From Nemopilema nomurai (taxonomy: Eukaryota > Cnidaria > Scyphozoa > Rhizostomeae > Rhizostomatidae): DNA of 64,000 nucleotides. Location: the NCBI GenBank assembly GCA_003864495.1, contig ML133369.1:1-64000 (forward strand), in the 5' to 3' direction. Below, piece by piece: positions 4,754 through 64,000 of this stretch. A model generated the notes under the pieces. That model made no database searches. It was not told the origin of the DNA and worked only from the letters and a program-made list of their open reading frames with translations. The position numbers and the translations under genes are program-made. Every line of letters starts with the position of its first letter. The first letter of the stretch is position 1.

Positions 4754-16404
<11,651 letters not shown>

Positions 16405-27680: not shown

Positions 27681-28605
27681 ATGCGAATGGGCGACCATGC
27701 ATTTCAAACCTGCATCTATAACAAATAATGTGAATATATATCTACTTATGTGCCTAATTTGTAGTGCTGCGAATTTTGATTAGGTAAGTGGAGCCATTAA
27801 GTCAGAAGTGTGGCTGTTATTGGCAACGCTTTTAGAGCTCAAGTTTTACCACCAACTCTTAAATTTCGTTTTCAGAATGAAGGCCTGTTTGACCCTCTGC
27901 AGAAAGCTGTACGCGGCAAAAGCTAGAAGTTTAATGAATGTAACAAGCCTTCTAGAATAACGACGTTTTTTTGTTTTTGTACACTCATAACATAACTTGA
28001 TAACAGCTCTATCAGACTACGCCTATCAAGTTTCTTCTATTCAAATGCTAGAGCCAAGGTTAGGACATTGTTTCCATTGTTTATGCATGACCTGTGTTTT
28101 ACAAATGTGCTTCCCAGAGTCAATCACGGAAGTGAATATGTGGTTTTGTCGGTTTCTTGGGATTTGAAGGAGAAACGTGCTTCATGGTAAGGCTTTTGAA
28201 GGATATTCCTAATAATATCAAAGTTTTAACTGTATCCAGCAATGACGGAATATTGTATATATGCATCATCTGGCGGATACTCCACGAGTGCCTTGATTCG
28301 ACTGATTGAAGTTCACTTCTCACTCAGTGGCCTAACAATGTTCTATTAGCGATCTGCACGTTGTATTACTTCTGACGAACATTTGTGCACGTTTTTGTCA
28401 TTGATCTTTACCCCTAAAACTGCTTTTGCATCTTCCAAATTAAAGATTTCCCCATGAGGTGTACATGGCTTGGCGAAAAGATGAGGTTAAGCGTTCTCTT
28501 TCGGAAATTTTGGACATTTATCGCCCAGTCTCTGGTTTGTTTTCATAGCATTAATTGGTTGAATCTTTGAAGTCAATAAAAAAATGTTTCTCTGCCAGGT
28601 TCATC
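27681..28605. other. 5' flank of Eph gene 2
   Basis: No exon supported. From 27995 the sequence is shared with the flanks of genes 3 (39565 on) and 4 (51564 on), so the presumed promoter region was duplicated with each gene. A pyrimidine tract and AG (TTTCTCTGCCAG, ending 28598) just before the start codon could be the acceptor of a 5' UTR intron, and it is conserved in all three copies. Confidence 0.4.
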
Positions 28606-31600
28606 ATGGATTTACGATGGAAACTTGAGCTGATTTTAGGTTTGGCCCTAATAACATTTGTGATAGTGGATATTTCAAAAGGAATTCATGGTATGTGGAG
28701 GCTTGATTTTCTTGTTTATGCACTGAAAACTTTGTAACATTTACAAAGGCCTCACAATTTGGGCGATTCCCTCTGGCGATTCGCACACTTGCGACTTCTT
28801 TTGTTTTCTTTTAATAAGTTTTCGCAGAAATATAATAAAAATGTATGTTGAAGCGTAGCCAATATATCATTGTTTGCTGCACTTTTTTCAATTGTGCTAG
28901 ATGCCTAAAGTGCTGGGCGTTAGTTTCTGCTGGTGTGATGACTGTCATGAAATTGCTTTTATTCTACAATTAACGATCATTTAAAAGATATGCGATGCGA
29001 TTTCATTACTGTCTGGATTCCTTTGTATACAGCCATAGATTCATCAAAAATGGCTTTAGAACTTCAATGCCGACATAGGTCTTCCGTTTGATATTGGTTT
29101 CTCTCTTTCTGTGCAGCTCTCAAGAGCGAGTCAACTTAGATCAGGCATTACGTAAATTAAATGTTTAAACATCATGCTGAGGTGTTTTTGAGAAGCATTC
29201 TACAATGAAAATATTCTAAACTCGCATGTATACAAAGAAGGCGCATTTGCTTTCTAGATCTTGTGATGTGATATTCAATCATTTCTTCCTGCACGTGTTT
29301 TAACACAACTTTTCTTTCCTGATTATTCTTTTAGTTCCATTGTCAGTGCCTGGCTTTATGCAATGGACAGGTGTAGCTAATGCATCAAAGCCACGAGCTC
29401 GAAGTAATGTAAGTGTGACTTTGGAAACCACAGCTTGTTGATGTGTTTTGTAATGAGAACCACGGCGAATAAATATGTGTTTTGTAAGTGGCTTTCTAAA
29501 AAACCAAGCAAAGATAGATAACGAAGAGATTAAAAAATCATATATCCATTAATTGATTTTTTCGTTAGGCTAGATCAATGCAAACAATTTTGCATTTCTC
29601 TGAAAGCTTGCTAGCTAAAATATTCGATTTTTGGAAATTAGATTTTAGATCCGGAGATCTAAATATATATATATATATTCAAATGTTGTCACTGTATTTA
29701 AGAACGGGTTCTTTTTAAAGGCTTGAGATTGTCCAAAGAAATGATGGCAATGCTCTCTATGGAAATACGAAGATAATATGATAGTATGATACAATCGAAG
29801 CCCAGTCAAAATCGCATTTTCGAGACTAAATCTAAACCAGATCTTATCATCAGTATATATATATGCTATATTTCAAATCTATAATTCGATTGATTGACAT
29901 AATCCACTTTTTATTGGTCACTCTATTGTTAGTGAAAGACAGCTATCAATCATGATACGGTCGGTTGCTTTTTACCCCTCCTGCACAGCTCACAGCCGCC
30001 ATTGCATGTTTCATAGGCCATCGTTTCCATACTTTTGCGACCCCAGTGTATACTATATTTCAAATCTATAATTCGATTGATTGACATAATTTTTCCAACA
30101 TTATACGAGCTTCAGCACCTTTACTGGCTTGGCTCTATTTAGAATTAGTAAATGCTTTAATATTTGAAATCTTGAGTTTTGGATGGATTAACTGAATTTT
30201 TGCTTGCTTGTTTTCAATTCCATTCGAAATAAATTTCCTTCACATTTATGCAAATGCGACCATCTTTTGAATTACAGTTCTTAATAAACTTAACTTTCTT
30301 TGATTCGCTTTCCAGTGGCAGCTTTCAGCTGATAATCGTCTCACAGCCTGCAAAGTTGGAAATGATGTTATCGATGGTTATATCATTTCACCTTTTGTCT
30401 CTACGAACCCAGCCAATCAGATAAACTTAGGAGTTACATATCAGCTGGCGTGCTGTTCTAACCTGTTGTCAATCGGTGTTTATGCCTACTTCAGCTCAAG
30501 CAGAGTTGATGGTTTGAATCCCAATACACACACTTTTAAGTACATTTCTTCACTGAGGAATACTTCGTCAATGATTCCCAGTAATTCTCAAGTGCAGTTC
30601 ACATCACGTTTTGCAATCGAAATGGAGGGACAAACGGGAATTCATTTAGCATTCCGTGATCAAGGAATCTGCGGAAGAATTGTCTCTTTGATAACCAATT
30701 ATACATCATGCCCAATCTCTGCGGGAGATTTGATGTCATTCCCATCCAAATCTGCTCCAAATAGCACAGTTGCTGTACAAAAGGTACCAGGAGCATGTGT
30801 TCCCAACTCAAAGATGCGATTTTCACAGTCGGATAATTACATGTTTTGCTACACAAATGGCTCGACAAAGGTGCATGGTGGATGTCGCTGCAATGCTGGA
30901 TACCGAAATGTTTTAACAACAAGATGCGAGGGTAAGTATCTTTCCCGCCTACATTGAAATACTGCTTAGTGTCATGGAAATGCAGCAACATAGATAGTGA
31001 AATGCTCATCTCCCGACTGAAGTTCAAAGGCTAAATAAAAGTAAAAGGGTGCTATTTGGTTAAAAGTTTCAGAAAGAAGCAGTTCCTGGCAAAAATGAAA
31101 TTTGTATTTTTAGCATCGTCTGAATACTAAATTTGACCTGCAGCTTGATAATTCCTTATGTGAAATTTTAGGAACAACACAGGTACATTTTCAAATTTAG
31201 AAAGTCATTTCTGTCAAAATTTGGGCCTCAAGATTTTCTCTGTGACTTAAGATGAAGTAATATTGATGGTTAATTGGAAGGCCATGCTAAATGTTAAAAA
31301 ATGATGGCTAAAATCGCTATTTGAAACTTCTTGACTTTCTAAAGATACGATTTACAAAGGTGCGTTGAAGTTCAATTAATTAGATAACGCAGATAACGCT
31401 TGTCTTTCCGATCTTCTGTGATTCGGCTTTGATTTTCAATCAGTTATTTCCACACGCATAATGTGTAGAACACATCTTCTTTAATTTGCTTCACTATTTA
31501 TTTTTAGAATGCCCCCCAAAGACCTTCAAGTCATCCCCTGGTAACGTTCAATGCACAAAGTGTGCTGCAAATGTGCAAGATGGTCGGAAGCCAAGAACGA

Positions 31601-34600
31601 CAGTTTGCAAATGCAAGGATGGCTACTTCAGGCCAACTTCATCTCCAGACGATCCAAAAGTTGATTGTGAAGGTGAAATTCTAACTTACGCCTAGTTTCA
31701 TGCTGTTTTTAGTGTCTAGCCTTATCGATTTTAAGAGATTACAAATTAAAGTTGAATTTGAAAACTCAGCAGTGGAAGGCTACGAAAAACCATTTCATTA
31801 TTTGAAAATATGCAAATCAAAGCACAGTAAGAAGAAAGTAAGAAAAAGCTTTTGCTTTTAAACTTTGGTCTAAAGCAACCCAAAAGACCATCACCATTCG
31901 ATTTTAGATTATTCTTCCATTTCATATGCTCACTCCTTAATTATTCTAGCATGCTATTATTCAATGATTACCCTACTATAACTTATATAAACTCATTCTT
32001 ATCTTTCCTCTAGCCTCTTCAATAAAGTCGAGCTTGCTCAATTTTTCCTAGCCACAAACCACATCTTGCTCATTCTATTTAGCCTCGCTAGCTATTTCCA
32101 ACTTTGTAGTTATGGAGCTTCGATTCTCACCCCACAGCGACAAAATACGTTTGCAAAAGTAAACTCTGAAATGAGGCTTTTTGAACACAAAAGCATTTGA
32201 TATCTAGCCCATAGTGTAACATTCGGCCTCCATTTTGTAGTAATTGACTAAGTTGTCATTCCAAATAGCGGCACCATCCTCTCCGATGCACGTAAATACA
32301 AAAAAGGCTGGATCGACCTGGGTTTCATTAGAGTGGGGATCACCATTGCAACAGGGAACTGGAGATAGCCCGCGATACCGAGTCAAAGCTGGCTGCTCAA
32401 AATGCATAGCGCCACGTGACAAGACGACATCGAACACTTACCTCAATTTCACCGGATTGAGTGCCTACACCCGTTATGTGTTCAGCGTCTATTCCATCAA
32501 CAATGTCACTGACGCTATTGGATTCGACAAAGCGGAATATAACAGCACATCTGTGATGACTGGATCAGGACGTGAGTTGAATCATTGCCAAGTTGTAAAC
32601 ATAAATCCATTAAGGCTTTTACCAGAGTGCTTCCTCAGTGAGTCTGATTTGTCATCTACGCAATGCCGTCACTTATTCGTACATGGCCTTGATTTTAAGA
32701 GGAATGTCAATAATCATGTAGTGAAATTCAAGTGACAGTAATTTTGGGGCTTTAAGAAGTGATTTGAATAACGCACTCATTTTATGAAAATGCCCTAAGG
32801 TCTTATTCATTATTTTATTACCGAGTAAAGTCGTTGCATTTCTTCTGGGAAAAGGTATAAGATTTTTATCTAATATTAGCTATAGTCTATGTTAGGAAGT
32901 AGACTTTCGATTTCATATGCAAGTGGGATAGAAGTAGCATTTTTATGAGATGGTGAAAATGACTATAAACAGCAAGTGCAATAGAGTATTTCATTTAGGC
33001 GTTTTGCCTGGCTCTAAATAAACACTTCTGGAATTCTCAATTGTAAATAGAAAAGGTTGTTCTGTGTTAAAATGGTATACATGTCATTTTAGTGCCTTCG
33101 GAAGTACAAAACTTAACGAAAAGGTTTAACCTTGATGGATCAGTGACAGTAACCTGGAATGAGCCAGTCACCAAAGGTGGTGATGATTTGCGGTACTATG
33201 TGACTGTCAATGGGCAAGGCACATTCTTGACCAAGCGAGAATACACCGTGAAGCAGAAACAAGGAAAGAAGAAGTATACAGTATCTGTAAGTAATAGGTT
33301 TTAGTGCTCCCGCGAAGGGTACTCAGCTCGAAAAAGATTGATTACTCCAACAAGTAAAGTAATGAAATTATACCAGTCTACTTCTTATTAGAAGGGTACT
33401 TATTAGAAAGGTTTAAAAGTACGTAAAGAATGTGCAGGTGGAGAGAGAGGCTTATAATTGAATTATGTATAGCTTGCTTCGTTCGATGCCTCAGATGTAT
33501 TTATTATTACTACTTCCAAACATCTACTCTAAAAGACGCTCTGATATCCTTGGTTTTTGTAAAATGGCCTTATTGCCATTATAGGTAAAGGCCCACACAA
33601 GCAGCGGTTTCTCCAAAGAAGTCGTTATCACTTTTGAAATTAGAGGAAAAGGTAAGTATTAGCCTGTTTCAGGCCTATCTTGCGTCCTCTGTCTGAAGAC
33701 TTCTAGCATCAGGAATAGTAACTTGAATATTGTTAGGGTTTTTCAAGTCTGTTCGTCATTTTGCGCTGCTCTGTTAATAGAGAGAGTTGAGAGGCCCTTG
33801 AAAAGAATAGACAAATATGAGTCAAGCTTAATATATTTTGTAATTGATTAATTTTAAATAAAAGGGATATAAGATTGAGGAAGTTCAATTTTCGTTGTAG
33901 GTATTTCAAAATCGCTGCTGGTTGCAATTGGAGTTCCCATACTCGTTGTACTGTTGATTGCTGTTGCTGTTGTTGTCGCGTGTAATCGAAGGTTTGGCTT
34001 CAATGTTTTGTTTGATTAATCAACCTATTATCAAGTCATAGGGCCTATAATCAAGACAAGTCTTTTTAGAAATGCCAGAAATGCTTCAAGTGATCCAGAA
34101 ACTGAAACATAAATGAAACGAGCAATCTCATAGTAATCAAGAACAATTGAAAAAAGTCGAATGTGACTGAAAAGCGTTAAAAGCTCAATCTTCCTTGTTG
34201 ATGCAAAAATTTTAAAACTTAATCAAAGATATTTGCTGTATTCATACTCCTAATGTCTCAATAATGCATGTTTGAGGAAAAGTCAGTTTAATTTTTCCAA
34301 GGCGGCAGTCAAAGAGTTTGCAAGCAGCCTATCTGGCAGGCGGAGGTGGTACGTATATTTTTGCCTCAATCTGAATAACTAGCTTCTCGTTAGTGGTTTA
34401 CCGACGTGTTATAAACTAGCCTGAATAAACATGATCCTATTACCCTAGTCATAAATTGGCCAGTTAAATAACATGTGGTGATTGCCATCAAACATTAATC
34501 CATCATCCTTGAATCTGGTCTTAATTCCTTCTTTGAGTGCCTTGTTTTCTTGGTTGCTGATTTTCAGTGACTTTGCCGAATGAGTACAATTCCATGGTGT

Positions 34601-37600
34601 ATGTCGACCCAACAACATATGAAAACATAGAGGATGCTCTGCAGGAATTCGCAAGGGAGCTAGATCGATACTGGGTGCGTCTGGATTGCCTGATACGTGG
34701 AGGTAAGCTTGCAATACCATTTTATGGACTGCATATTAACTTGAATCAGGACCAGGTCACATGACCAAGATCATTATTGTAGAATTTGTCTTGTTTGCCT
34801 AAGTTCAATAAATTATTTGGCTTCACCCAAATTAAGACTGTTTTGTTTTTACTTTTAACTGTGTTTTCCTTTTATTTTAAATGCAAGATATTGTAAGTTT
34901 TATAAAATTCATTTTCTTAAATGATTTTAGGGGAATTTGCTGATGTTTACAAGGGGACTTTGGAGAAGCCTCTTCAGAAAGAGAAACTGGTTGCCATCAA
35001 GGTCCTAAAAGTAGGTATACAGCGAAGTAATACTTCTTGCGTGGATAAAAGTAGACTACTATTTCAAGTTTTCCCACTCAACTTGAGTATGGATAATGAG
35101 AAACAAAAATTGAAGCCATGAAGTTTGGATTTCGAACCATACTTATACTGCATCATAAACGGAAAAATGAAGGAAACAAATAGTATACATATAAGTTAGG
35201 ATTTTGAATCGATACTCTAAAACTCAAAAGATTCCCACTTCTGTCTCTTATTCTGTAACTTCATTGTGAAGTTGAGTAAACTTGATAATTGTCTTGAAAG
35301 ATGTTGAAATATATTTTGAAGCCTCTTTCTAAACGTTTTGCAGACAAACGCAAGCAAGAAAGCAAGGGACGATTTTTTGGCAGAAGCTGCATATACGGGA
35401 CAGTTTGAAGACCCAAATGTCATACACCTGGAGGGTGTAGTAGTGAAAAGTATTGCCTCTTACCTTCGAATATTCACTTTGCCTTGTTATAAGCCTAGAC
35501 AGTAGCTCTCCAAGCGATGCTCTTGATACCAAACTGTGCTCCTCTTTTTCAAGCAATCAAATCGTAGCTGGTTAAGTTTTTAGTGAGACCATGAAGATAT
35601 ATATTTGAACGTGTTTAATCCGGCAGAAATATGACTCATTGCATTTCTCAATACTGATATATGATCTTTTAATTTTAGGTCACCCAACATTGATTGTTAC
35701 TGATTTCATGAGCAATGGGTCACTAGACTCGTTCTTGAAAGTAAGTTAAGTGCAAAATGCCTGTTCAAACATGTTGCAATTACCATTCTTGTAGTAAATA
35801 GTTAATAAGTTAGAAAAGGCTTCTTGGCTAAGGGATGCCACATTTGCTTAAAGATTGTCGATGTTGACGCTCATTATAATATTAACAGAGTATTGTCCAG
35901 ATGGATTCAGGTATCTTTTATGACGAGTGTACCTCTACCTCAGTTCTGCTAAACAGGGAAGGAAAATGCTTGAAATAATGATTTTATTTCCCTAGGAAAA
36001 CGATGGAAAATTCACCCCATTTCAGTTACTGAGGATGGGTCGCGGTGTAGCTTCAGGGATGACGTATCTGTCAGAGATGAGTTACATCCACAGGGTAAGC
36101 ATCTGCATCGATTCATTGCAGTGACAACACTTTGATGTCTTGGCGTTTAAATGCTGAACAGGAAGCACGGCAAGATTGTTAGGCCTAGTTCTTGGAATTT
36201 CAAAGCGGATGCTTTCAAGGTATTGACTCGCAAAATCGTTGTGCACACCTTTCAAAACAGGCAGAGATTATCGTCCGGTTGAAATATTACATTTTTGTAT
36301 TTTTTTGGACTGCTTGAAAGTTTTTGCTAATTACACCATCTGGCAATAGATTGCAGGGAATTCTTGGCTTTTGCAGTTACATATGTATTGAAGTGTCTGT
36401 GGATTGTAAGATGCAAGGTAGTGTCTGTGGATTGCAGCTTCAGGGAATGTTCACTAAATCGACTAACAAGCACTATTAATCCTTGTAGTATCTGGCGGCC
36501 AGGGATATTTTAGTAAACAAAGACATGGTTTGCAAAATTTCTGGATTCGGAATAAGCAGAGAACTGATTTCTGATGAGAAAAACACCATCAAGGTAATCA
36601 ATTATTTCTCATTGGTTCAACTACATGCAAAATTTATTTGGAGCCAACCAATACTAAACTCCCATACTTCCATTTATCAGATTCGCTATCCGATGCTGAG
36701 AGCTTCCATTTACTAATCCACCGTTAAGTGTGCTCTGTTTCTTCCAACTTTGTTTAGAAGCGGTTTATTCTTGCAAAAGAAACGGTTAGATCTGCAGATA
36801 TCTTAAAGACCTTGCGATGATTTTTTTCAGGATGATGAGGTCGCTTTCAGATGGATCGCTCCTGAAGCCGTCAAGCAAAAAAAGTTCTCCATTGCGTCCG
36901 ATGTTTGGAGTTATGGAGTCCTTCATATGGAACAGCCCCTACATTGGCTGGGGCAACAATGAGGTACGTGTCTCGTGGTAATTTGGCCAATATTGGGTCT
37001 TGTTGCGTTCAGGTAGCCATTATGCTTAAATATGCACTTTCTTTACTATTGCTTACCTCCATTACATGTCAATAAGTTCCAATGGAGTTAGGTAGGGTAA
37101 TATTTACTTTTGACTCACTTTTGTTTTCAACTTTCAAGTTTTTGTATGAGCCCCTTGAGTATTTTTTGAGAATGTCCAAACCTTTTGAAGATAACTTTGC
37201 ACTGTTCTCCTTCATTTTGGACACTCCTTTATTGCAGGTTCTTGAAAGATCGATTTCTGGCTACAGATTACCTCCGCCAGTGGTACGTAACATTTTCAAA
37301 CGATCATTTTTAAAGCTGGTTGCTTTTAGAGGATTGCTCTTTTTCAATTTTGCAAGCACTCCATTCGGATGTGCTTCCTTTGATGCGATGCAGGAGTCTA
37401 TCAAACAGTTTACCTTGGCAATAAGTTCTGCGCGCGTAGGTGTATACATTAGAATGCATGCGCTATCGATTCTCCACTTTTACTGCAAAATGTTCACTTA
37501 GGAAATACTATGACGTTTGCCCACTATGTTTCCTCTATTTTTGTTGAGTTGCTCTAAATTAAGCTACACTTGTCCATTTTAATGAAATTTGCTTAGACAT

Positions 37601-38182
37601 TGCGATGTTTTCAGATGCCATGAAAGACTTTATAACCGGAAAGAACTGTTTTCTTCTTCGAATCCCAGGCAGAGGTGGGCCGTCTGGTCATGCTTGCTTC
37701 CGCGAGATGGTGTTTGCATGCTCGTGACTATTTTGGTTGCACGGGACAGTGTTTACATGCTCGTGACTGTGTTTGCTTGCGCGTGACAGCGTTTGCATGC
37801 GCGTGACTGTGTTTTTCACGCCAGACTGTGTTTGCTTGCGCGTGACTGTGTTTGCTTCTGCGAGATTGTGTTTGCTTGCGCCAGACTTTGTTTGCATTCG
37901 CGGGATCGTGTTTGCTTGCGCGTGACTGTGTTTGCTTGCGCGGGACAGCGCTTGCCCTTGCATGCTTGCCCAAGCATCCATAGTCTAGCTTCTTCTGCAT
38001 CATTTCTATAATGACAAACAGTCTAGAGTTGTGATTCGTTGCAGAATTGTCCAAAAGTCGTACACAATCTTATGCTATCCTGCTGGCACAAAGATTGCGA
38101 GGAGAGGCCAAAGTTCAAAACAATTCGCAACATGATTGATAATTGGATTCGAAGTCCTGAGTTGCTTGGACAGGAGACATAG
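28606..38182 (+). CDS. Eph: Eph receptor pseudokinase, SAM-less, with frameshift in kinase exon 16 (Eph gene 2)
   Basis: Eighteen exons: 28606-28690, 29335-29408, 30316-30931, 31508-31672, 32269-32571, 33093-33286, 33585-33651, 33901-33991, 34302-34348, 34568-34702, 34931-35010, 35344-35449, 35679-35740, 35996-36094, 36489-36593, 36831-36963, 37238-37282, 38045-38182. Signal peptide [18 protein letters not shown]. Domain order is as in gene 1 but without SAM. Catalytic residues are missing. Exon 16 is 133 bp instead of 150, so the frame shifts and meets TGA at 36960-36962, predicting about 786 residues; without the deletion it would be 853. It could be a pseudogene, a truncated receptor, or a copy with an assembly error. 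Confidence 0.8.
29866..30090 (+). repeat. 38-bp direct repeats flanking 149 bp in Eph gene 2 intron 2
   Basis: The 38-base stretch starting CTATATTTCAAATCTATAAT is present identically at 29866-29903 and 30053-30090. Gene 3 has a single, slightly diverged copy at the same place (near 41356-41394). The 149 bp in between is unique to gene 2 here. Confidence 0.85.
30316..33651 (+). CDS. Eph: Eph gene 2 exons 3-7: ephrin-binding, Cys-rich and FN3 domains
   Basis: Exon 3 (30316-30931) encodes the ephrin-binding domain: [13 protein letters not shown] at the start, [15 protein letters not shown] as the family signature, and GGCRCNAGY at the end. Exon 4 (31508-31672) is the Cys-rich module with [11 protein letters not shown] and [10 protein letters not shown]. 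Exon 5 (32269-32571) is FN3-1 with [11 protein letters not shown] and a Cys pair in GCSKC. Exons 6 and 7 (33093-33286, 33585-33651) form FN3-2 with [20 protein letters not shown] and VKAHTSSGF. All frames are open and splice sites canonical, so the extracellular part looks intact. Confidence 0.85.
33901..34702 (+). CDS. Eph: Eph gene 2 exons 8-10: membrane helix and juxtamembrane YVDP motif
   Basis: Exon 8 (33901-33991) encodes [20 protein letters not shown] plus VVAC and a basic NRR stop-transfer. Exon 9 (34302-34348) is a 47-bp linker. Exon 10 (34568-34702) has [20 protein letters not shown], keeping both tyrosines of the Eph juxtamembrane motif, and ends CLIRG, which leads into the altered glycine loop. 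The tyrosines are kept although the kinase is dead. Confidence 0.85.
34931..38182 (+). CDS. Eph: Eph gene 2 exons 11-18: pseudokinase domain
   Basis: Glycine loop [11 protein letters not shown] (first and third Gly replaced). VAIK lysine and the AEAAYTGQF glutamate are kept. Catalytic loop HRYLAARD (Asp to Tyr, Asn to Asp) spans 36094/36489. [11 protein letters not shown] replaces DFG by GFG. The activation loop DEKNTIK lacks the usual Tyr. Exon 16 (36831-36963) lacks 17 bp compared with gene 3 in the part encoding LLWEIMS, with the downstream frame lost. Exon 18 (38045-38182) would end [13 protein letters not shown]. Confidence 0.8.
36920..36945 (+). other. 17-bp net deletion (frameshift) in Eph gene 2 exon 16
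   Basis: Gene 3 reads GTCCTTCTTTGGGAGATCAT then GTCATATGGAGACAGCC; gene 2 reads GTCCTTCATATGGAACAGCC. A 16-bp block plus one base is missing. Gene 4 and gene 1 have the full 150-bp exon, so the loss is specific to gene 2. The shifted frame reaches TGA at 36960-36962, still inside the exon. Confidence 0.9.
37696..37953 (+). repeat. 20-bp minisatellite, about 13 units, Eph gene 2 intron 17
   Basis: Diverged 20-base units of the form GCWTGCGCGTGACTGTGTTT. One unit is 19 bp. It is followed by a boundary GCCCTTGCATGCTTGCCC shared with gene 3. Open frames across it on either strand are artefacts of a repeat lacking stops. Confidence 0.9.
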
Positions 38183-49100: not shown

Positions 49101-50144
49101 TTACCTCCATTAGTTTCCAATAAAGTTAGGACCAATTTGACCAATTTTTACTTTTGACTTGCTTTTGTTATAAATTTTAGTTTTTCTATGAAACCCTTGA
49201 GTACTTTTTGAGAATGTCCAAACGTTTTGAAGATAACTTTGCTCTGCCGCTGGTAAAAAATTTTGGCATATAAATTTTGAGCATTGCTTGTCATAGAACG
49301 TACAAGGACTAAATATAGTCCTTGGGAACTGTTACCCTTCATTTTGGACACTCCTATAATTGCAGGTTCTTGTAGGATTGGTTTCTGGCTACAGATTACC
49401 TCCGCCAGTGGTACGTAACATTTTCAAACGATTGTTGTTAAAGCTCGTTGCTTTAAGAGGATTCCTCATTTTCAATTTTGTTAGCACTCAATTCGGATGT
49501 GCTTACTTCGACGCGCTGTAGAAGTTAATTAAACAGTTTACCTTGGCAATAAGTTCTGCGCGCGTAGGTGATTAATGCATGCGCTATCGATTATCCACTT
49601 TTACTGCAAAATGTTCACTTAGTAAATAATATGACATTTGCCCGCGTATCTATATGTTTCCTCTATTGTTGCTGAGTTGTTCCCAATTAAGCTAACCTGT
49701 CCTTTTTAATAAAGTTTGCTTGTAGACATTGCGATGTTTACAGTTGCCATGAAAGACTTTGCAACAGGAAAGAACTGTTTTCTTTTCCAAACCAAGGCAG
49801 AAGTGGGCCGTCTGGTCATGCTTGCTATCGCGATATGGTGTTTGCTTGTGCGTGACTGTGTTCACATTCGCGGGATTGTGTTAACTTGCGCGGGACAGCG
49901 CTTGCCCTTGCATGCTTGCCCAAGCATCAATATTCTAGCTTTTTCTGCATCATTTCTATCATGACAAACAGTCTACAAACAGTTTAAAATTTTTATTTTG
50001 TTGCAGAATTGTCCAAAAGTCGTACACAATCTTATGCTATCCTGCTGGCACAAAGATTGCGAGGAAAGGCCAAAGTTCAAAACAATACGCAACATGATTG
50101 ATAATTGGATTCGAAGTCCTGAATTGCTTGGACAGGAAACATAG
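40165..50144 (+). CDS. Eph: Eph receptor pseudokinase, SAM-less, with mutated splice donor before membrane exon (Eph gene 3)
   Basis: Eighteen exons: 40165-40249, 40907-40980, 41635-42247, 43191-43355, 44214-44516, 45041-45234, 45532-45598, 45846-45936, 46228-46274, 46494-46628, 46986-47065, 47398-47503, 47733-47794, 48051-48149, 48515-48619, 48857-49006, 49366-49410, 50007-50144. If all are joined, the frame is open for 852 residues. The exon 7 donor, however, reads G|GAAAGT instead of G|GTAAGT. Read-through adds Gly-Lys-Tyr and stops at TAG 45607-45609, predicting a secreted ectodomain of about 503 residues. Signal peptide [18 protein letters not shown]. Kinase landmarks are degenerate exactly as in genes 2 and 4. 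Confidence 0.8.
41635..45598 (+). CDS. Eph: Eph gene 3 exons 3-7: complete ectodomain
   Basis: Exon 3 (613 bp) starts [14 protein letters not shown], one codon shorter than in gene 2, and keeps [15 protein letters not shown] and [10 protein letters not shown]. Exon 4 has [14 protein letters not shown] and [12 protein letters not shown]3-1 (44214-44516) has [20 protein letters not shown]3-2 (45041-45234, 45532-45598) has [20 protein letters not shown] and [14 protein letters not shown]. All frames are open. This is the part that would be secreted if the exon 7 donor is not used. Confidence 0.85.
45599..45609 (+). other. lost 5' splice site after Eph gene 3 exon 7
   Basis: At the position where genes 2 and 4 have AAAAG|GTAAGTATTAG, gene 3 has AAAAG|GAAAGTATTAG. 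The only nearby GT (45603-45604, GTATTA) is four bases into the intron and would change the phase. Direct read-through gives GGA AAG TAT TAG, a stop before the membrane exon. Confidence 0.9.
45846..46628 (+). CDS. Eph: Eph gene 3 exons 8-10: membrane helix and juxtamembrane motif
   Basis: Exon 8 (45846-45936) encodes a membrane helix almost identical to gene 2 ([20 protein letters not shown]). Exon 9 is 46228-46274. Exon 10 (46494-46628) has [20 protein letters not shown] and ends CLIHG. Frames are intact, so the membrane-anchored form remains possible if a cryptic splice is used. Confidence 0.85.
46986..50144 (+). CDS. Eph: Eph gene 3 exons 11-18: pseudokinase domain
   Basis: [11 protein letters not shown] glycine loop, VAIK and helix-C Glu kept. 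[14 protein letters not shown] replaces [19 protein letters not shown] has GFG. DEKNTIK has no activation-loop Tyr. Exon 16 (48857-49006) is the full 150 bp with [20 protein letters not shown]. Exon 17 differs from genes 2 and 4 ([15 protein letters not shown] versus [15 protein letters not shown]). The last exon ends [13 protein letters not shown] with a TAG followed at once by GTTAGT. Confidence 0.85.
49824..49903 (+). repeat. 20-bp minisatellite, 4 units, Eph gene 3 intron 17
   Basis: Short, diverged version of the same array: four 20-base units ending GGGACAGCGCTT, then the shared boundary GCCCTTGCATGCTTGCCC. Confidence 0.85.
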
Positions 50145-52170: not shown

Positions 52171-53579
52171 ATGAATTTACGATGGAAACTTGAGCTGATT
52201 CTAGGTTTGACCCTAATAACATTTGTGATGGTGGATATTTCAAAAGGAATTCATGGTATGTGGAGGCTTGATTTTCTTGTTTATGCACTGAAAACTTTGT
52301 AACATTTGCATAGGCCTCATATTCCGGGCGATTGGCTCTTGCGATTCGCACGCTTGGTAATTCTTTTGTTTTTGTTTTAATAATTTTTCGCAGAAATATA
52401 ATAAAAATTTATGTTGAAGCGTAGCCAATATATCATTGTTTGCTGCACTTTTTTCAACTGTGCTAGATGCCTAAAGTGCTGGGCGTTAGTTTCTGCTGGT
52501 GTGATGACTGTCATGAAATTGCTTTTTTCCTACAATTAACGATCATTTAAAAATTATGCGATACGATATCATTACTGACTGAATTCCTTCGTATACAGCC
52601 ATAGATTCTTAAAAATGGCTTTAGAATTTCAAAGGCAGCTCCAATGCCGACATAGATCTTCTGTTTGATATTGGTTCCTCTCTTTCTGTGCAGCTCTCAA
52701 GCGCAAATCAACTCAGATTTGGCATTACATCAAAAAAATGCTTAAACACCATGCTCATGTGTCTTTAAGAAGCATTCCACAATGAAAATATTTTAAGCTC
52801 ACATATATGCAAAGAAGGTGCTTTTGCATTTTAGATTTTGAGATATGATATTCATTCATTTCTTCCTGCACGTGTTTTAACACAACTTTTCTTTCCTGAT
52901 TATTCTTTTAGTTCCGTTGTCAATGCCTGGCTTTAAACAGTGGACAAGTGTAGCTAATACATCAAAACCACGAGCTCGAAGTAATGTAAGTGGCTTTTTT
53001 AAACATTGCAAGTTTTTTAAAGATCAAAGCGATGATAGACAATGATATGATTCAAATATCCATCAATTTACTTCTGCGTTATGTTAGATCTATGAAAAAT
53101 TTTTACTTTCTTTCAGAAATTTGCTAGCTAAATATGGAAATGTTTTGCAAGATAGATTTTCAAATTTTGTCACTGTATTTAAGAATCGGTTCTCTTTTAG
53201 GCTTGACATTCAACAATCAAATATCAATTAATTGATTTTTTTCGTTAGGCTAGATCTATGCAAACAAATTTGGGTTTTCTCTGAAATTCGCTAGCTAAAA
53301 TATTTGATTAATTCGATTGGTCGTCATAACTTATTAAAAGTCGAACCATAAATTTCAAACATTATACGAGCTTCAACACCTTTACTGGCTTGGCCTCATT
53401 TAAGATTAGCAAACACTTCAATATTTGAAATCTTGAGTTTTGAATGAATGAATTGAATCTTTGAAGTGTTTTTAATTTGATGTTAAATGAATTTCTTTCA
53501 TACTTATGGAAATATGTTTCTAATCACAGTTTATTCAATGAATTTATTTCAGTATATCCTTTCTTTTTTCGCTTTCCAG

Positions 53580-54194
53580 TGGCAGTTTTCATCATATAAT
53601 CGTCTCGTTGCCTGCAAATTTGGAAATGACGTTATAGACGGTTATTTCATTTCACCTTTTGTCTCTACGAACCCAGCCAATCAGATAAACTTAGAAGTTA
53701 CATATCAGCTGACGTGCTGTTATTACGTGTTGTCAATCGGTGTTTATGCTACTACTTGATCTCAAGCGGAGTTGTTAATTTGAATCCCAATACACACACT
53801 TTCAAGTACATTTCTTCCCTGAGGAATACTTCGTCAATGACTCCCAGTATTTCTAAAGTGCAGTTCACATCACGTGTCACAATCGAAATGGAGGGACACA
53901 CGGGAATTCATTTGGCATTCCGTGATCAAGGAATCTGCGGAGGAATCTCTTTGAAAATAAATTATACATCATGCCCAAGCTCTGCAGGAGATTTGATGTC
54001 ATTCTCAAATGGAGCTGCTCCAAATAGCACAGTTGCGGTGCAAAAGGTACCAGGAACATGTGTTCCCAACTCAAAGATGCGATTTTCACAGTCGGATAAT
54101 TACATGTTTTGCTACACAAATGGCTCGACAAAGGTACATGGTGGATGTCGATGCAATGCTGGATATCAAAATGTTTTATTAACAAAATGCGAGG
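53580..54194 (+). pseudogene. Eph: Eph gene 4 exon 3: ephrin-binding domain with +2 frameshift
   Basis: The first frame gives WQFSSYNRLVACKFGNDVI and runs to SIGVYATT-stop. The second frame resumes with [19 protein letters not shown] and continues to the exon end with [14 protein letters not shown] and [10 protein letters not shown]. Compared with gene 3 (GTTTATGCCTACTTAAACTC), gene 4 reads GTTTATGCTACTACTTGATC, a net gain of two bases with a tandem ACTACT. Confidence 0.85.
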
Positions 54195-54452
54195 GTAAGC
54201 ATTTTCTCTGCTACATTGAAATATTGCTTATTGTCATCGAAATGCAGCAACATAGATAGTGAAATTTTTATCTCCCGACTGAAGAGTTCAAAGGCTAATT
54301 AAAGGAAAGCTTTACATTTCAATAATGGTGACAAGAACTTAGTGCCGGTCATTCTAGCATTCTGTTGCTTTTCTTTCCGATCTTCTCTTTTTGGTCTTCT
54401 TTCCCGGTCGATTTTTAAAGGCCGATGCTTTACAATGCGATTTTGTTTGCAG

Positions 54453-54520
54453 AATGCCCCCCAAAGACCTCCAAGTCTTCCCTTGGCAACGTTCAATGCT
54501 TTAAATGTGCTGCAAATGTT
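54453..54520 (+). repeat. partial duplicate of Cys-rich exon 4 in Eph gene 4
   Basis: After an acceptor-like TTTTGTTTGCAG, the first 68 bp of an exon-4 copy appear (AATGCCCCCCAAAGACCTCC ... GCTGCAAATGTT), then the sequence jumps straight into the intron end that precedes the real exon 4 at 54561. The upstream context resembles gene 3's intron end and the downstream one gene 2's, so it looks like a recombination joint. It lacks a donor and is unlikely to be spliced in. Confidence 0.75.
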
Positions 54521-54560
54521 GAACACATCTTCTTTAATTTGCTTCACTATTTATTTTTAG

Positions 54561-56456
54561 AATGCCTCCCAAAGACCTTCAAGTCTTCCCCTGGCAATGT
54601 TCAATGCACAAAGTGTGCTGCAAATGTGCAAGATGGGCTTAAGCCAAGAAGGACAGTTTGCAAATGCAAGGATGGCTACTTCAGGCCGACTTCATCCCCA
54701 GGCGATCCAAATGTTGATTGTGAAGGTGAAATTCTAACCTTCTCCTAGCTTTATGCCTTCAAGCTTTACCGTTTTCAAGACACAAGCAACAAAAATGAAT
54801 TTGAAAAATTCAGCAGCGGAAAGCTACGAAAAACCGTTTCATTCCTTTAAAATATGCAAATCAAAGCATAGTAAGAAGAAAGTAAGATAAAAACGTTTGC
54901 TTTTAAACTTTGATCTTAAGCATCTCAAAAGAGCATCACCATTGTCCCCGACAATGACATAATATTGTTCTTTTTTGCAAAAGCAAACTCAGAAATGAGG
55001 CTTTCTGAACACAAAAGTACCCTGATGTCTAGACCAAGTGTAACTTTAGCATGCATTTTAAAGTGATTGACTAAGTTGTGATTCCAAATAGCGGCTCCAT
55101 CCTCTCCGATGCACGTAAATACAAAAAAGGCTGGATCGACCTGGGTTTCATTAGAATGGGGATCACCATTGCAGCAGGGAACTGGAGATAGCCCGCGATA
55201 CAGAATCAAAGCTGGCTGCTCAAAATGCATAGCGCCACCTGACAAGACGACATCGAACACTTACCTCAATTTCACCGGATTGAGTGCCTACACCCGTTAT
55301 GTGTTCAACGTCTATTCCATCAACAATGTCACTGACGCTATTGGATTCGACAAAGCGGAATATAACAGCACATCTGTGATGACTGGATCAGGAAGTGAGT
55401 TAAATCATTGCCAAGTTGTAAACATAAATTCATTAAGGCTTTTACCAGAATACTTCCTCGTTGAGTCTGATTTGTCATCTACAAAACGCTGCCACTTACT
55501 TGTACATGGCCTTGATTTCAAGAGAAATGTCATTAATCATATAATGAAATTCATCAAGTGACAGTGATTTTGGGACTTTAAGAAATGATTTGAGTAACGC
55601 ACCAATTATATGAAAATGCTCTTCGGTCTTATACATTCATTTACTACCGAGTAAAGTCGTTTAATTTCTTCAGGCAACAGGTAAAATATATAATATTTTA
55701 GTATAGTATTCGTAAATATTAAATATATAATATATAGTATTCGTTTACTTATGCAAGAGAGATAGAAGTCGCATTTTTATGTGCAATAGAGTATTTCATT
55801 TAGGCGTTTTGCCTTGCTCTAAATAAACACTTCTGGAATTCTCAATTGTAAATAGAAAATGTTGTTCTGTGTTAAAATGGTATACATGTCATTTTAGTGC
55901 CTTCGGAAGTACAAAACTTAACGAAAAGGTTTAACCTTGATGGATCAGTGACAGTAACCTGGAATGAGCCAGTCACCAAAGGTGGTGATGATTTGCGGTA
56001 CTATGTGACTGTCAATGGAAAAGGCAAATTCTGGACCAAGCGAGAATACACCGTGGAGCAAAAACAAGGAAAGAAGAAGTATACAGTGTCTGTAAGTAAT
56101 AGGTTTTGGTGCTCCCTCGAAGGGTACTCAGCTCGAAAAATGTTGATTACTCCAACAAGTAAAGTAATGAAATTATACCAGTCTACTTCTTATTAGAAGT
56201 GTATTTATTAGAAAGGTTTAAAAGTACGTAAAGAATATGCAGGTGGAGAGAGAGGCTTATAATTGAATGATGTATAGCTTGCTTTATTCGATGCCTCAGA
56301 TGTATTTATTATTACTACTTCCAAACATCTACTCTAAAAGATGCTCTGATATCCTTGTTTTTTGTAAAATTGCCTTATTGCCATTATAGGTAAAGGCCCA
56401 CACAAGCAGCGGTTTCTCCAAAGAAGTCGTTATCACATTTGAAATTAGAGGAAAAG
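54561..56456 (+). CDS. Eph: Eph gene 4 exons 4-7: Cys-rich module and FN3 domains
   Basis: Exon 4 (54561-54725) has [14 protein letters not shown] and [10 protein letters not shown]. Exon 5 (55092-55394) has [15 protein letters not shown] and ends with an A before the donor, making the junction codon ATG rather than CTG. Exons 6-7 (55898-56091, 56390-56456) contain [20 protein letters not shown] and VKAHTSSGF with an intact GTAAGT donor, unlike gene 3. Confidence 0.8.
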
Positions 56457-56705
56457 GTAAGTATTAGCCTGTTTCAAGCCTATTTTGCGTCATCTGTCTG
56501 AAGACTTCTAGCATCAGGAGTAGCAATTTGAATATTGTTAGGGTTTTTCAAGTCTGTTTGTCATTTTGCGTTGCTCTGTTAAAAGAGAGAGTTGAGAGAC
56601 CCTTGAAAAGAATAGACAAATATGCGTCAAGCTTACTATATATGGTAATTGATTAATTTAAAATAAAAGGAATATAAAATTTAGGAAGTTCAATTTTCGT
56701 TGTAG

Positions 56706-59546
56706 GTATTTCAAAACCGCTGCTGGTTGCAATAGGAGTTCCCATACTCGTTGTACTGTTGATTGCTGTTGCTGTTGTTGTCGCGTGTAATCGAAGGTTT
56801 GGATTCAATGATTTGTTTGATTGATCAACTTATAGTCAAGCCATAGGGCCTATAATCTTTTTAAAAATGCCAGAAATGCTTCAATTGATCCACGAACGGA
56901 AACATAAATGAAACGAGCAATCTCATAGTAATCAAGAACAATTGAAAAAAAGTAAAGTGTGACTGAAAAGCGTTAAAAGCTCAATCTTCCTTGTTGATGC
57001 AAAAATTTTAAAACTTAATCAAAGATATTTGCTGTATCCATACTCCTAATGTCACAATAATGCATGTTTGAGGAAAAGTCAGTTTAATTTTTCCAAGGCG
57101 GCAGCCAAAGAGTTTGCAAGCAGCCTATCTGGCAGGCGGAGGTGGTACGTATATTTTTGCCACAATTTCAATAACTACAATGCCCGCCAAAAGTGTTGGA
57201 ACAGTCCAATCATCTTTCCTACTAAACGTATGCATTTATTACAAGTAGAATCTCGGTGTTCCAACTACTTTTGGCGGGCATTGTCTTTTACCAATTTCAA
57301 AGGCGGGCAAATAGAGCATGACCAAAAGGCTCTTTATAGGGGTTTTCGGTGGTGCTCATTTCATTGGTGAAGTCAAAATTGTGATTTGGTTGACTCGTGA
57401 CGTCATAATTGCTCAATGGCCCATTTTTGGCCCAATTTTACAGGTTTATGGAGGTGTTGAGGTATTAATTTGATAATCTGCAGATAATCAAGTTGAAATC
57501 ATATTTGAAGACAATTATTAGTTTTTATGCAATGTATTAACCTTGTATTTCACATGAGTTTGAAAAATCTGGCTTAGAGAACAACAAAATAGGGAGAGCA
57601 GTCTTTTCAGGTGCCACCATAAAACTTGTTGTCGTAGGTCGTCGAAAGGGACGCAACATTTGCATATGTCGGCCAGCAAAATGTGGCAAAATATTCATTT
57701 TCGATCCTCTTCAGTTCATTTTTAAGTCATTTCTTTCTCCTGCTACACGTTCATATGCTTGGCTTGGTGTGGAGGACAAAGACATAATTCCTGAATGATT
57801 TCAGGTACTCGCCAATAATTCTACCTTGGAGCGATATGTTACTTCCCTTTGAAGGCCATATTGTTCATTTTGCGGCCCCGAAAACCTCATATAGCAAGAA
57901 CATTCTCTTTGAAAAAGATAGGCATATCTTTGCGACATCCAAGGCCCCAATAACTTTCGTAAAGAACGGTGTTTTCGACGACCGCGAGACTGAGTTGATG
58001 AATGTACGATGGCGAATGTTTAGCTTCCGCTTTCAAATACCACCGGAGAAACAAAAGGCTGTCCCCATCTGTGCACGTTGCTTTGCAAGCCTTTTGTTGT
58101 CTTGAACACTATAACATTGTTTCTTGCACTATTGTTGTTGATGCTGCTCGTTTTCGTTGTCATTCAACCAACGAGTAACGGTTGGAAAATGTTTGAAGAT
58201 TTATCCACAGCAGGACTTTCCTTTAACTTGTTATTTTGAAAATGTCATGCAGGAGGGTGCAGTAGTTTAATCAACATTGTGAGTAACCTATTTCTCGGCT
58301 TTTCCTTTCTTACGTCAAGATACAAGAGAAAATTTCACGTTCAACGGCACTTTGAAAGTTCAAATGACATCATTCAATATGTTACTATCAGAAAAGCGTT
58401 GAGCGTGGAGAAATCATGAAAATATGCAGCTTCTATTCTATTATTGTTCAAGAAATTTCCTGCAACATCATATATCGTGATGCACACCTATCTAACTATT
58501 TACTTGGGAGATTTGAATCTTAACTGCTTTGTATTTCATCGAAACTCACAAGTTTTCCAACCGTTAAACGTTTAAGAAATGACACTTCAATTCAATTCAA
58601 TTCAACTTTTTATGCTGGTCTAGTCAAAGTTCTATCGAGGCACGGTTGTCACTGCGATGCATGTTGTAATGGCCGCTGTATAAGAGCATACTGTGGACAT
58701 TTGCTGTACTAGCCATTGTTTAAAACAAGCTTTTACCTTCCCTGTTTCAAAATATACTTGTTTTCCCGGCAATCAACAGTAATTGCCAAGAAAATAAGAC
58801 GGAACATTGAACATATACCGATTATGACGTCACACGTTAGTCGTACACCTTCGATTTTAATTCCATTGGAATGCTCGCCCCCAAAAACCCTAGAGTAGTT
58901 ATACTTTACATGTCAGTCTTTCGCACACAGAAAGAATGCAAAAAGACAATGCCCGCCAAAAGTGTTGGAACAGTCCAATCATCTTTCCTACTAAACGTCT
59001 CCCCTCCCTCATATACAATGTTGGTTTCCGACTGGAAAATGAAAACAAATGTATGTTGGAGCGCAGATTGTGTAGCCCATGTTTAGCGACATGTTCACCT
59101 ACCTTTACAACATTGTTTAAGGGGGGGAGGGGGCTCCGTCTGCTTGAAATAGGGAATTGAAGTGAAAATATGCATTTATTACGAGTAGAATCTCGGTGTT
59201 CCAACTACTTTTGGCGGGCATTGTAGCTTCTCGTTAGTAGTTTACCGGCGTGTTATAAACTAGCCTGAATAAACATGATCCTATTACTCTAGTCATTAAT
59301 TGGCCAGTTAAATAACATGTGGTGATTGCCATCAAACATTAAGCCATCATCCTTGAATCTGTTCTTAATTCCTTCTTTGAGTGCCTTGATTTCTTGGTTG
59401 CTGATTTTCAGTGACTTTGCCGAATGAGTACAATTCCATGGTGTATGTGGACCCAACAACATATGAAAACATAGAGGATGCTCTGCAGGAATTCGCAAGG
59501 GAGCTAGATCGATACTGGGTGCGTCTAGATTGCCTGATACATGGAG
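56706..59546 (+). CDS. Eph: Eph gene 4 exons 8-10: membrane helix and juxtamembrane motif
   Basis: Exon 8 (56706-56796) repeats the gene 2 membrane helix. Exon 9 (57098-57144) precedes a 2.05-kb transposon insertion in intron 9. Exon 10 (59412-59546) has [20 protein letters not shown] and CLIHG. Frames intact. Confidence 0.8.
57178..57283. mobile_element. 106-bp inverted-repeat element A
   Basis: Bounded by CAATGCCCGCCAAAAGTGTT and a matching inverted end (arms about 25 bp, one indel). The interior AGTCCAATCATCTTTCCTAC and ATGCATTTATTAC segments are shared with element B. Looks like a miniature inverted-repeat element. Confidence 0.75.
57836..58105 (+). CDS. ORF inside the composite insertion, helicase-like C-terminal fragment (tentative)
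   Basis: 89-codon ORF with LLPFEGHIVHFAAPKT, then HIFATSKAPITFVKNG, DDRETELMNVRWRMF and a late Cys pair CARCFASLL. From memory this resembles the tail of a transposon-encoded protein family repeated in invertebrate genomes, possibly a superfamily-3-like helicase (FATSK at the sensor position). I am not sure of the family. The N-terminal part is missing, so it is a remnant. Confidence 0.35.
   Translation: MLLPFEGHIVHFAAPKTSYSKNILFEKDRHIFATSKAPITFVKNGVFDDRETELMNVRWRMFSFRFQIPPEKQKAVPICARCFASLLLS
58947..59223. mobile_element. 277-bp inverted-repeat element B
   Basis: Same ends and shared interior as element A, but with about 170 bp extra between CTACTAAAC and ATGCATTTATTAC, including a G-rich GGGGGGGAGGGGG stretch near 59120. 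Its right end is also the right end of the whole insertion. Confidence 0.75.
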
Positions 59547-59746
59547 GTAATCTTGCAATACCATTTTATGGACTGCATATTAACTTGAATCAGGACCAGG
59601 TCACATGACCAAGATCATTATTGTAGAATTTGTCTTGTTTGCCTAAGTTAAATAAATTGTTTGGCTTCACCTAAATTAAGACTGTTTTGTTTTTACTTTT
59701 AACTGTGTTTTCCTTTTATAAAATTCATTTTCTAAAATGATTTTAG

Positions 59747-62147
<2,401 letters not shown>

Positions 62148-62560
62148 GTACGTAACATTTTCAAACGATTATTGTTAAAGCTGGTTGCTTTTAGAGGATT
62201 GCTCTTTTTCAATTTTGCAAGCACTCCATTCGGATGTGCTTCCTTTGATGCGATGCAGGAGTCTATCAAACAGTTTACCTTGGCAATAAGTTCTGCGCGC
62301 GTAGGTGTATACATTAGAATGCATGCGCTATCGATTCTCCACTTTTACTGCAAAATCTTCACTTAGGAAATACTATGACGCTTGCCCACTATGTTTCCTC
62401 TATTTTTGTTGAGTTTCTCTAAATTAAGCTACACTTGTCCATTTTAATGAAATTTGCTTAGACATTGCGATGTTTTCAGATGCCATGAAAGACTTTATAA
62501 CCGGAAAAAACTGTTTTCTTCTTCGAATCCCAGGCAGAGGTGGGCCGTCTGGTCATGCTT

Positions 62561-63460
62561 GCTTCCGCGAGATGTTGTTTGCATGCGCCAGACTGTGTTT
62601 GCTTCCGCGAGATGGTGTTTGCATGCGCCAGACTGTGTTTGCTTGTGCGTGACTGTGTTTGCATGCGCGTGACAGTGTTTGCATGCGCCAGACTGTGTTT
62701 GCTTCCGCGAGATGGTGTTTGCATGCGCCAGACTGTGTTTGCTTCCGCGAGATGGTGTTTGCATGCGCCAGACTGTGTTTGCTTGTGCGTGAATGTGTTT
62801 TCTTGCGCGTGACAGTGTTTGCATGCGCCAGACTGTGTTTGCTTCCGCGAGATGGTGTTTGCATGCGCCAGACTGTGTTTGCTTGTGCGTGACTGTGTTT
62901 GCATGCGCCAGACTGTGTTTGCATGCGCGTGAATGTGTTTGCATGCGCGTGACAGTGTTTGCATGCGCCAGACTGTGTTTGCTTCCGCGAGATGTTGTTT
63001 GCATGCGCCAGACTGTGTTTGCATGCGCCAGACTGTGTTTGCTTCCGCGAGATGGTGTTTGCATGCGCCAGACTGTGTTTGCTTGTGCGTGACTGTGTTT
63101 GCATGCGCCAGACTGTGTTTGCTTGTGCGTGACTGTGTTTGCATGCGCGTGACAGTGTTTGCATGCGCCAGACTGTGTTTGCTTCCGCGAGATGTTGTTT
63201 GCATGCGCCAGACTGTGTTTGCTTCCGCGAGATGGTGTTTGCATGCGCCAGACTGTGTTTGCTTGTGCGTGAATGTGTTTTCTTGCGCGTGACAGTGTTT
63301 GCATGCGCCAGACTGTGTTTGCTTCCGCGAGATGGTGTTTGCATGCGCCAGACTGTGTTTGCTTGTGCGTGACTGTGTTTGCATGCGCCAGACTGTGTTT
63401 GCATGCGCGTGAATGTGTTTTCTTGCGCGTGACAGTGTTTCCATGCGCGTGACAGTGTTT
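62561..63460 (+). repeat. 20-bp minisatellite, 45 units with internal higher-order repeat, Eph gene 4 intron 17
   Basis: Forty-five consecutive 20-bp units of a few types: A GCATGCGCCAGACTGTGTTT, B GCTTCCGCGAGATGGTGTTT, C GCTTGTGCGTGACTGTGTTT, D GCATGCGCGTGACAGTGTTT, plus point variants. A 15-unit block (62641-62940) recurs at 63121-63420 with a single-base difference, i.e. a 300-bp segment duplicated at 480-bp spacing. Long open frames exist on both strands because the unit lacks stops; they are not genes. Confidence 0.95.
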
Positions 63461-63489
63461 ACATGCTCGTGACTATTTTGGTTGCACGG

Positions 63490-63696
63490 TGTCATGAGGT
63501 AGAGAAAAAGAAAAGAGACGTAGTTTAAACCTAAACTAGGCTCTAATCAACGCATATCCACTAGTAATAAAAAACAACAAGTACGCTTCAATGCGCTAAT
63601 AAGTTTGAACTATAATAGCGATTGTTCTTCATTGAATGTCAACACAATCTATGGAAATATTTCTAAGGAAGGTGTCAATAAGCTAGTTTCACCACA
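63490..63696 (-). mobile_element. 3' LTR of an antisense LTR retrotransposon
   Basis: On the minus strand the 207-bp segment starts TGTGGTGAAACTAGC and ends CCTCATGACA, i.e. TG...CA, and is preceded by a purine-rich tract (GGGGGAGAA, 63697-63708). It starts exactly where gene 4 intron 17 stops matching gene 2 (after GGTTGCACGG). The 5-bp target duplication is probably CACGG (63485-63489), but the other copy is outside the window. Confidence 0.7.
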
Positions 63697-64000
63697 TTCT
63701 CCCCCAGTAGGGAAAGTTACTTATGGACTTGAAAATCCATATCTCTCAGGTTTCTTCCTAAAACGAGTTGACCGACGAAGTTGCTCAACGGGTTCCACCA
63801 TTTCACACCTAACATTCTCTGTTATTGGAACTTCAACGGTATCTGATTGGCCAGGTTCGACGGCAGTAGTCCCGTTAAGCTGGTCTGAATCGGCTCCGTC
63901 TTCTGCATCTGTGCTCTTTGGGCAACTGACGATTCACGGCCATCTTTAAAGCGAATAAAAGCATACGTTGGATTCAGATGAGTCAGCTCAACTTCCTCCA
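63697..64000 (-). mobile_element. 3' end of Ty3/gypsy-like pol (partial, probably frameshifted)
   Basis: Read on the minus strand, the end of the coding region carries an acidic linker, then a basic RRSTRFRKKPERYG motif typical of the tail of Ty3/gypsy polyproteins, then a stop shortly before the polypurine tract. An upstream stretch with FKDGRES lies in another frame, so the copy seems decayed. It is antisense to Eph gene 4 and continues beyond the window. Confidence 0.55.

Follow-up and report, generated by a model that had tools for sequence, protein, structure and literature searches.

The kinase-dead Eph receptors of vertebrates are EphB6 and EphA10 (PMC8347583; PMC6993872), and one of these sources traces such receptors back no further than Gnathostomata, noting that some invertebrates have altered isoforms (PMC6993872). 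In a different kind of system, the CD300A/CD300C pair, gene conversion keeps the heads of two receptors alike over different tails (PMC12447643). Here we report on a locus of the jellyfish Nemopilema nomurai that resembles both, in the first 64,000 nucleotides of contig ML133369.1 (hereafter C5; the whole of this stretch is called the window) and in the sequence adjoining it. Two long-separated classes of Eph genes appear to exchange their ligand-binding exons at this locus while keeping different tails, a kinase with a SAM domain in the active class and a dead kinase without SAM in the other.

A tblastn scan with exon peptides as queries over C5:1-144000 and over C149:155001-315000, on a second contig, gave the order gene 1, three kinase-dead Ephs (genes 2-4 of the window) and then three active Ephs on C5, and gene 1 with six dead and two active copies on C149. 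One further dead copy lies on contig C31, bringing the dead copies to 10. A prior sequence-only reading of the window had described an array of three kinase-dead Ephs beside an active one, gene 1. The three are present in the window, but the set is larger, with six more on the second contig, and gene 1, although active, is no natural partner, since its ectodomain is distant (its ligand-binding domain (LBD) exon is 35% identical to that of gene 3). The pool of ligand-binding exons found in the dead copies is instead carried by the three active Ephs just past the window, which have LBD exons at 74006, 91886 and 109847 and the motifs HRDLAARN, DFG and EDTYNTT.

In the head of the gene, exons e02-e04 (LBD, cysteine-rich region and first FN3; 30304..32564 in gene 2, 41623-44509 in gene 3 and 53568-55387 in gene 4, all on the plus strand), the dead and active copies show no fixed difference over 1,095 sites and have 107 shared polymorphisms. 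In contrast, e05b-e16 (late FN2, transmembrane and juxtamembrane regions and kinase; 33585..38179 in gene 2, 45532-50141 in gene 3 and, in gene 4, from 56390 to beyond the window edge, again on the plus strand) hold 220 fixed differences over 1,077 sites and only two shared polymorphisms, which gives alike heads on different tails, the mark of paired receptors. Exon e05 has nine fixed and seven shared sites. These counts exclude out-of-frame stretches (C149_pC e02, C149_pD e10, and e14 of C149_pB and C149_pE); with the broken rows included, the head had 0 fixed and 109 shared sites and the tail 216 and 4. The same picture is given by synonymous divergence (dS), which in the LBD exon is 0.165 between dead copies, 0.172 between active copies and 0.175 between classes, and in the catalytic exon 0.074, 0.096 and 1.83, respectively.

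The introns between the head exons are unrelated or nearly so across the classes and alignable within each of them. Between-class scores were 24 for e02-e03, 40 for e03-e04 and 39 for e04-e05 (22, 24 and 21 after shuffling, respectively) as against within-class medians of 254 to 723, with four copies per class as controls; the e12-e13 intron is exceptional, with a between-class score of 136 against 20 for shuffled sequence. Given class-specific introns and common head exons, the split between the classes must be old, with the head exons apparently homogenised since then, exon by exon, and the shared polymorphism together with these introns supports gene conversion as the process that would keep the heads alike. 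Within the kinase, between-class dS is lower in e10-e12 (0.39, 0.50 and 0.15) than in e08, e09, e13, e14 and e16 (0.90-2.33), where the catalytic changes sit. This difference fits selection holding the dead state apart, but it could also come from the chance placement of conversion tracts.

A kinase tree (three bilaterian rows, EphB6 and EphA10 themselves not among them; C149_E1, C5_p2 and C149_pD left out) gathered the dead kinases in one clade (100/100), which groups with the active copies and the kinases of the jellyfish Rhopilema (97/90), far from the bilaterian rows. The dead Ephs are thereby set apart from vertebrate EphA10 and EphB6, in agreement with the independent origin that the sequence-only reading had supposed. 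Their clade is sister to the active and Rhopilema kinases together (90/87); an approximately unbiased (AU) test did not reject dead and active kinases as one clade (p 0.10 and 0.158), the choice being between a split before and a split after the Rhopilema lineage. That the catalytic loss predates the duplications, as had been claimed, is the simplest reading of a single clade, although conversion among the copies could also have spread the loss. The ectodomain tree (rows from this genome, Rhopilema, P0006 and P0009; C149_E1 and all other rows left out) is of another shape, with the heads of both classes in this species forming one clade without Rhopilema (100/99) and mixed inside it, and the kinase topology was rejected when forced on the heads (p-AU 0.018). 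In protein searches (best 120 of 655 and best 120 of 6,414 matches) the closest proteins among the matches listed were from Rhopilema esculentum (65% identity) and a EukProt source, then from octocorals and hydrozoans. The catalytic loop, the only part compared, reads HRDLAARN in 200 of 204 listed relatives, HRDVAARN in P0128 and FKDLAARN in P0014, with no match in P0015 and P0151, and HRY was found in none of the 204.

Genes 2, 3 and 4 are all kinase-dead Ephs without SAM on the plus strand. Gene 2 (C5_p2; 28606..38182) opens with a signal-peptide exon at 28606, not at 27995 as had been proposed, followed by the first LBD exon at 29334, the LBD exon at 30304, the catalytic exon at 36489-36593 and the last exon at 38045-38176, then ACA TAG. 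Gene 3 (C5_p3; 40165..50144) has its signal peptide at 40165, LBD exon at 41623-42247, catalytic exon at 48515-48619 and last exon at 50007-50138, again with ACA TAG after it, and is unbroken in all 16 exons examined. Gene 4 (C5_p4; 52171..64000, continuing past the window to a last exon found at C5:68652-68783) has its signal peptide at 52171, an LBD exon at 53568-54199 in two frames, a catalytic exon at 61271-61372 and e15 at 62103-62147. The gene models are splice-consistent, with some weak splice sites (e.g. e05b to e06), and count 16 exons from the LBD exon on in the dead copies C5_p3, C149_pA and C149_pF and 17 in gene 1, C5_a6 and C149_a8; in the signal-peptide and first LBD exons upstream of the modelled ones, the former look class-specific and the latter common when compared by eye. 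The intron e15-e16 holds minisatellites with 20/40-nt based units in gene 2 (37694-37955) and gene 4 (62559-63466, about 0.9 kb).

The catalytic exons of genes 2-4 read YLAARDILV[N/S] and the preceding exon ends in ..SYIHR, hence HRYLAARD. The three features first noticed as common to these genes, HRYLAARD, GFG and the want of an activation-loop Tyr, were recovered in their catalytic exons, as was the altered glycine loop ([R/H]GGEFADV against GGGEFGDV in gene 1), and HRYLAARD with GFG is found in 10 of 10 dead copies on C5, C149 and C31. The dead class has lost the HRD Asp, the catalytic-loop Asn, the DFG Asp, the activation-loop Tyr, two glycine-loop glycines and the SAM domain, and retains the beta3 Lys and the alphaC Glu. 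No SAM exon was found in any of the 10 (the C31 copy examined to e13), and in genes 2 and 3 TAG follows directly after ..ELLGQET. The first juxtamembrane Tyr is readable in all 10 dead copies and the second is present in eight of nine readable ones, the ninth having Phe. Ephs without SAM have been reported in other cases (PMC6485061), so that the family membership of the dead genes rests on other features. The Ephrin-binding LBD of gene 3 matches PF01404 at 33 bits (cut-off 27), and a model of its LBD exon (predicted local distance difference test, pLDDT, 85) has the EphA2 and EphA4 ectodomains as best matches (template modelling score, TM, 0.78). Its cysteine-rich domain stays below the cut-off of 27 (PF25599, 24.5 bits), and the Pfam matches further include fn3 in two stretches, EphA2_TM (39.6 bits) and PK_Tyr (280 bits). 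The best solved relatives of the kinase are Eph kinases, and Pfam gives an Eph architecture in both classes, with SAM in the active protein and none in the dead one.

The dead tails are under constraint. In frame-intact dead kinases (C5_p3, C5_p4, C149_pA, C149_pC and C149_pF) dN/dS (omega), counted as changes among distinct codons and, like all such counts here, made approximate by conversion, is 0.26 (p 1.3e-9), with 0.11 in the N-lobe and 0.41 in the C-lobe exons, as compared to 0.14 in the active kinases. This is the purifying selection on the pseudokinase exons that the sequence-only reading had named, along with expression of the copies, as what would support function. The exon with the juxtamembrane tyrosines has a dN/dS of 0.065 among dead copies, and the cysteine-rich and FN3 parts taken together give omega values of 0.39 and 0.43. 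The D-E, G-H and J-K loops of the Eph LBD play a role in ephrin binding. When the sequences are aligned with EphB2, the columns of its D-E and G-H loops have an omega of 1.23, against 0.55 elsewhere (Fisher p 0.009; 12 rows, without C5_p4, C149_pC and C149_pD), the loop limits having been set after the diversity had been seen, and the adjoining columns 48-55 reach 4.36 on 15 changes.

We therefore favor, with a little better than even confidence, the view that the locus is a paired-receptor-like Eph system in which live and dead tails would carry ligand-binding heads from nearly one pool of variants. Gene conversion would be confined to exons, because the introns of the two classes no longer pair, and would renew the heads of both. 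Judged by its residues the dead class should not phosphorylate; its members may bind the same ligands as the active receptors, join the same clusters and lower kinase output there, and because their juxtamembrane tyrosines are kept they may be phosphorylated in trans by active partners and serve as SAM-less scaffolds. EphB6 is reportedly trans-phosphorylated by EphB1, and by this precedent the dead class would most simply serve as a substrate and scaffold within clusters that it forms with active receptors of the same ligand. With variable binding loops and a copy number that varies, the pair could keep up with ligands as they diverge. A bolder version, which we offer as a speculation unlikely to hold, is a polymorphic locus for the recognition of self and non-self, mates or microbes, in which a loop-diversifying pool of heads would be dealt to live and dead tails by exon-confined conversion, on haplotypes that differ in copy number.

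Several observations weigh against a common pool of heads on paired receptors. The heads are imperfectly mixed, the between-class distance being slightly larger than that within classes (label shuffling with near-copies included, p 0.016, 0.044 and 0.057 for e02, e03 and e04, respectively); the runs test for mosaics is weak (p 0.016 in e02, not significant in e03 and e04); and monophyly of the dead copies was not rejected for the ectodomains (p-AU 0.0625). The whole LBD exon has an omega of 0.66, i.e. below 1 (13 rows, without C5_p4 and C149_pC), and the J-K columns one of 0.29, which counters the idea that every binding loop is diversifying. Only one ephrin match was obtained in the genome, with two candidates scored, and six of the 10 dead copies have a frame break in some exon. 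The AU result and the small class signal in e02 and e03 would suit a common head without continuing exchange, derived from a single recent chimera in which an active head was joined to an old dead tail. However, the introns would then have come along, yet those between the shared exons are class-specific, and the heads combine zero fixed differences with 107 shared polymorphisms; we regard such a chimera as very improbable. It is also conceivable, if rather unlikely, that the dead Ephs work simply as co-receptors or decoys, as the sequence-only reading had proposed, with common heads as an incidental result of concerted evolution and no selected pairing, since conversion is expected in tandem arrays and neither the catalytic losses with juxtamembrane tyrosines kept nor the purifying selection needs pairing. 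Array-wide homogenisation alone, however, would not halt at the late FN2 and spare e08, e09, e13, e14 and e16, which are of similar length, yet touch e10-e12.

The frame breaks, absent from the four complete active copies, could also mean that the dead copies are a decaying and functionless by-product of duplication, in line with the loss of SAM and the higher omega of the C-lobe. This we consider unlikely, given the omega of the dead kinases as a whole, the presence of three dead copies whole in all 16 exons (C5_p3, C149_pA and C149_pF; C31_p is whole in the 13 examined) and the doubtful nature of the breaks themselves, which are most likely errors of assembly. The LBD exon of gene 4 has a 2-nt frame break at 53750 that is absent from its near-identical twin on C31, and 1 substitution and 22 indels separate the two copies within 8,272 bases; in the gene 1 flank, 18,978 bases contain 67 substitutions and 32 indels. 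Many of the indels are therefore likely to be errors of the consensus, and the C31 copy is probably gene 4 assembled twice. The breaks in e14 of C149_pB and C149_pE each come down to one missing base, in a G run and in a C pair, whereas e14 of gene 2 lacks 16 nt and 1 nt relative to gene 3, and assembly error is a harder explanation for the 16-nt loss. The idea that the 1-nt deletion of gene 2 is common to C149_pB and C149_pE was dropped, as the DNA shows three different breaks.

In regards to the assembly, C5:1-19001 matches C149:167204-186205 at 99.4%, and C5 and C149 are likeliest two haplotypes differing in copy number. Whether genes 2-4 might be an assembly artefact had been raised at the outset; they are distinct, with differences at about 60 of 630 bases of the LBD exon between genes 2 and 3 and at 56 of 633 between gene 2 and the C31 twin of gene 4. 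A broader distortion of copy number and class structure, with C149 as a segmental duplication or some copies as artefacts, would draw on the C31 double and on the doubtful right part of C5, where the stretch at 139-142 kb matches first C107, then C44. It strikes us as the least credible of the alternatives, since two contigs independently have the order gene 1, dead, active with mostly distinct sequences, since C149:155001-158000, farther left, and the Eph on C23 have one full match each, and since the contrasts between the classes hold whatever the copy number. Gene 1 has a SAM exon on either contig, as do four of five active copies, two of them among the three on C5; the third C5 copy ends early after e14, where the C149 match stops at C5:118981, and the end in C5:118823-118981 reflects either a true truncation or a join made in scaffolding. 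The Ephrin_lbd profile has 17 matches in the genome; gene 4, with its LBD exon broken in the assembly, is not among them. One of the 17 is a different, single-copy gene (C23:2230384-2237333, L034) with an Eph-type LBD about 32% identical and a divergent kinase (DLACRNILVG..ISDLGLARE), possibly another type of Eph-like receptor. Lone LBD fragments with stop codons at C5:91424-91624 and C149:284614-284814, upstream of active-type LBD exons, are relics of further copies.

Gene 1 (4754..16404, plus strand) lies outside the exchanging set. Its signal peptide is at 4754-4816, its LBD exon at 6582-7206, the exon with HRDLAARN and DFG at 13403-13507 and the SAM exon at 16174-16401; HRDLAARN, ADFG, the activation-loop DDVYSTT and the glycine loop GGGEFGDV agree with the earlier statement that it keeps its catalytic motifs. 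Between genes 1 and 2 there is a tandem duplication of about 3.7 kb (window 19777-26891) with translated stretches up to 100% identical; of seven minus-strand frames searched there, six had no match in Pfam. A minus-strand open frame at 27101-27559 matches an integrase core domain below threshold (23.3 bits against a cut-off of 26) and is perhaps a mobile-element remnant beside the array. An interspersed repeat of about 210 bp at 3354-3567 recurs in at least 38 further places at 89-92% identity (best 40 of 418 candidates).

If the paired-receptor interpretation is right, the logic of such pairs would extend beyond vertebrate immune receptors to cnidarian receptor tyrosine kinases. The locus is also a natural experiment on what a dead kinase requires, as heads and a few kinase exons look exchanged with active partners while the exons with catalytic changes stay apart. 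It also places a kinase-dead Eph lineage outside the jawed vertebrates, as opposed to the tracing in the published account (PMC6993872), and we found no invertebrate kinase-dead Eph lineage in the literature as searched, mostly by titles and abstract openings.

The nearest relative for comparison is Rhopilema esculentum, where four matches lie on one 9.8-Mb contig and where P0001 has a SAM match, P0002 has none and the heads group together. However, both keep HRDLAARN and ADFG, and there is no dead copy among the matches listed. P0002 reads NFVNLTY in place of the Y[VI]DPTTY of the others, so that the first juxtamembrane Tyr motif is lost, and this SAM-less protein with intact catalytic motifs is a parallel splitting of tails beneath similar heads. 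With CD300A/CD300C the jellyfish genes have in common a working principle, not descent: neighbouring genes with similar ligand-binding parts and tails of different signalling. The former are mammalian immune receptors of immunoglobulin type, whereas the latter are receptor tyrosine kinases, with putative opposed signalling and an exchange apparently confined to exons. The likeness to EphB6 and EphA10 lies in an Eph architecture with a kinase that lacks the HRD, DFG and activation-loop residues and with juxtamembrane tyrosines usable as substrates. Unlike these, the jellyfish dead Ephs are of separate origin, keep the beta3 Lys and alphaC Glu, have lost SAM, and stand in a tandem array with heads in common with their active neighbours.

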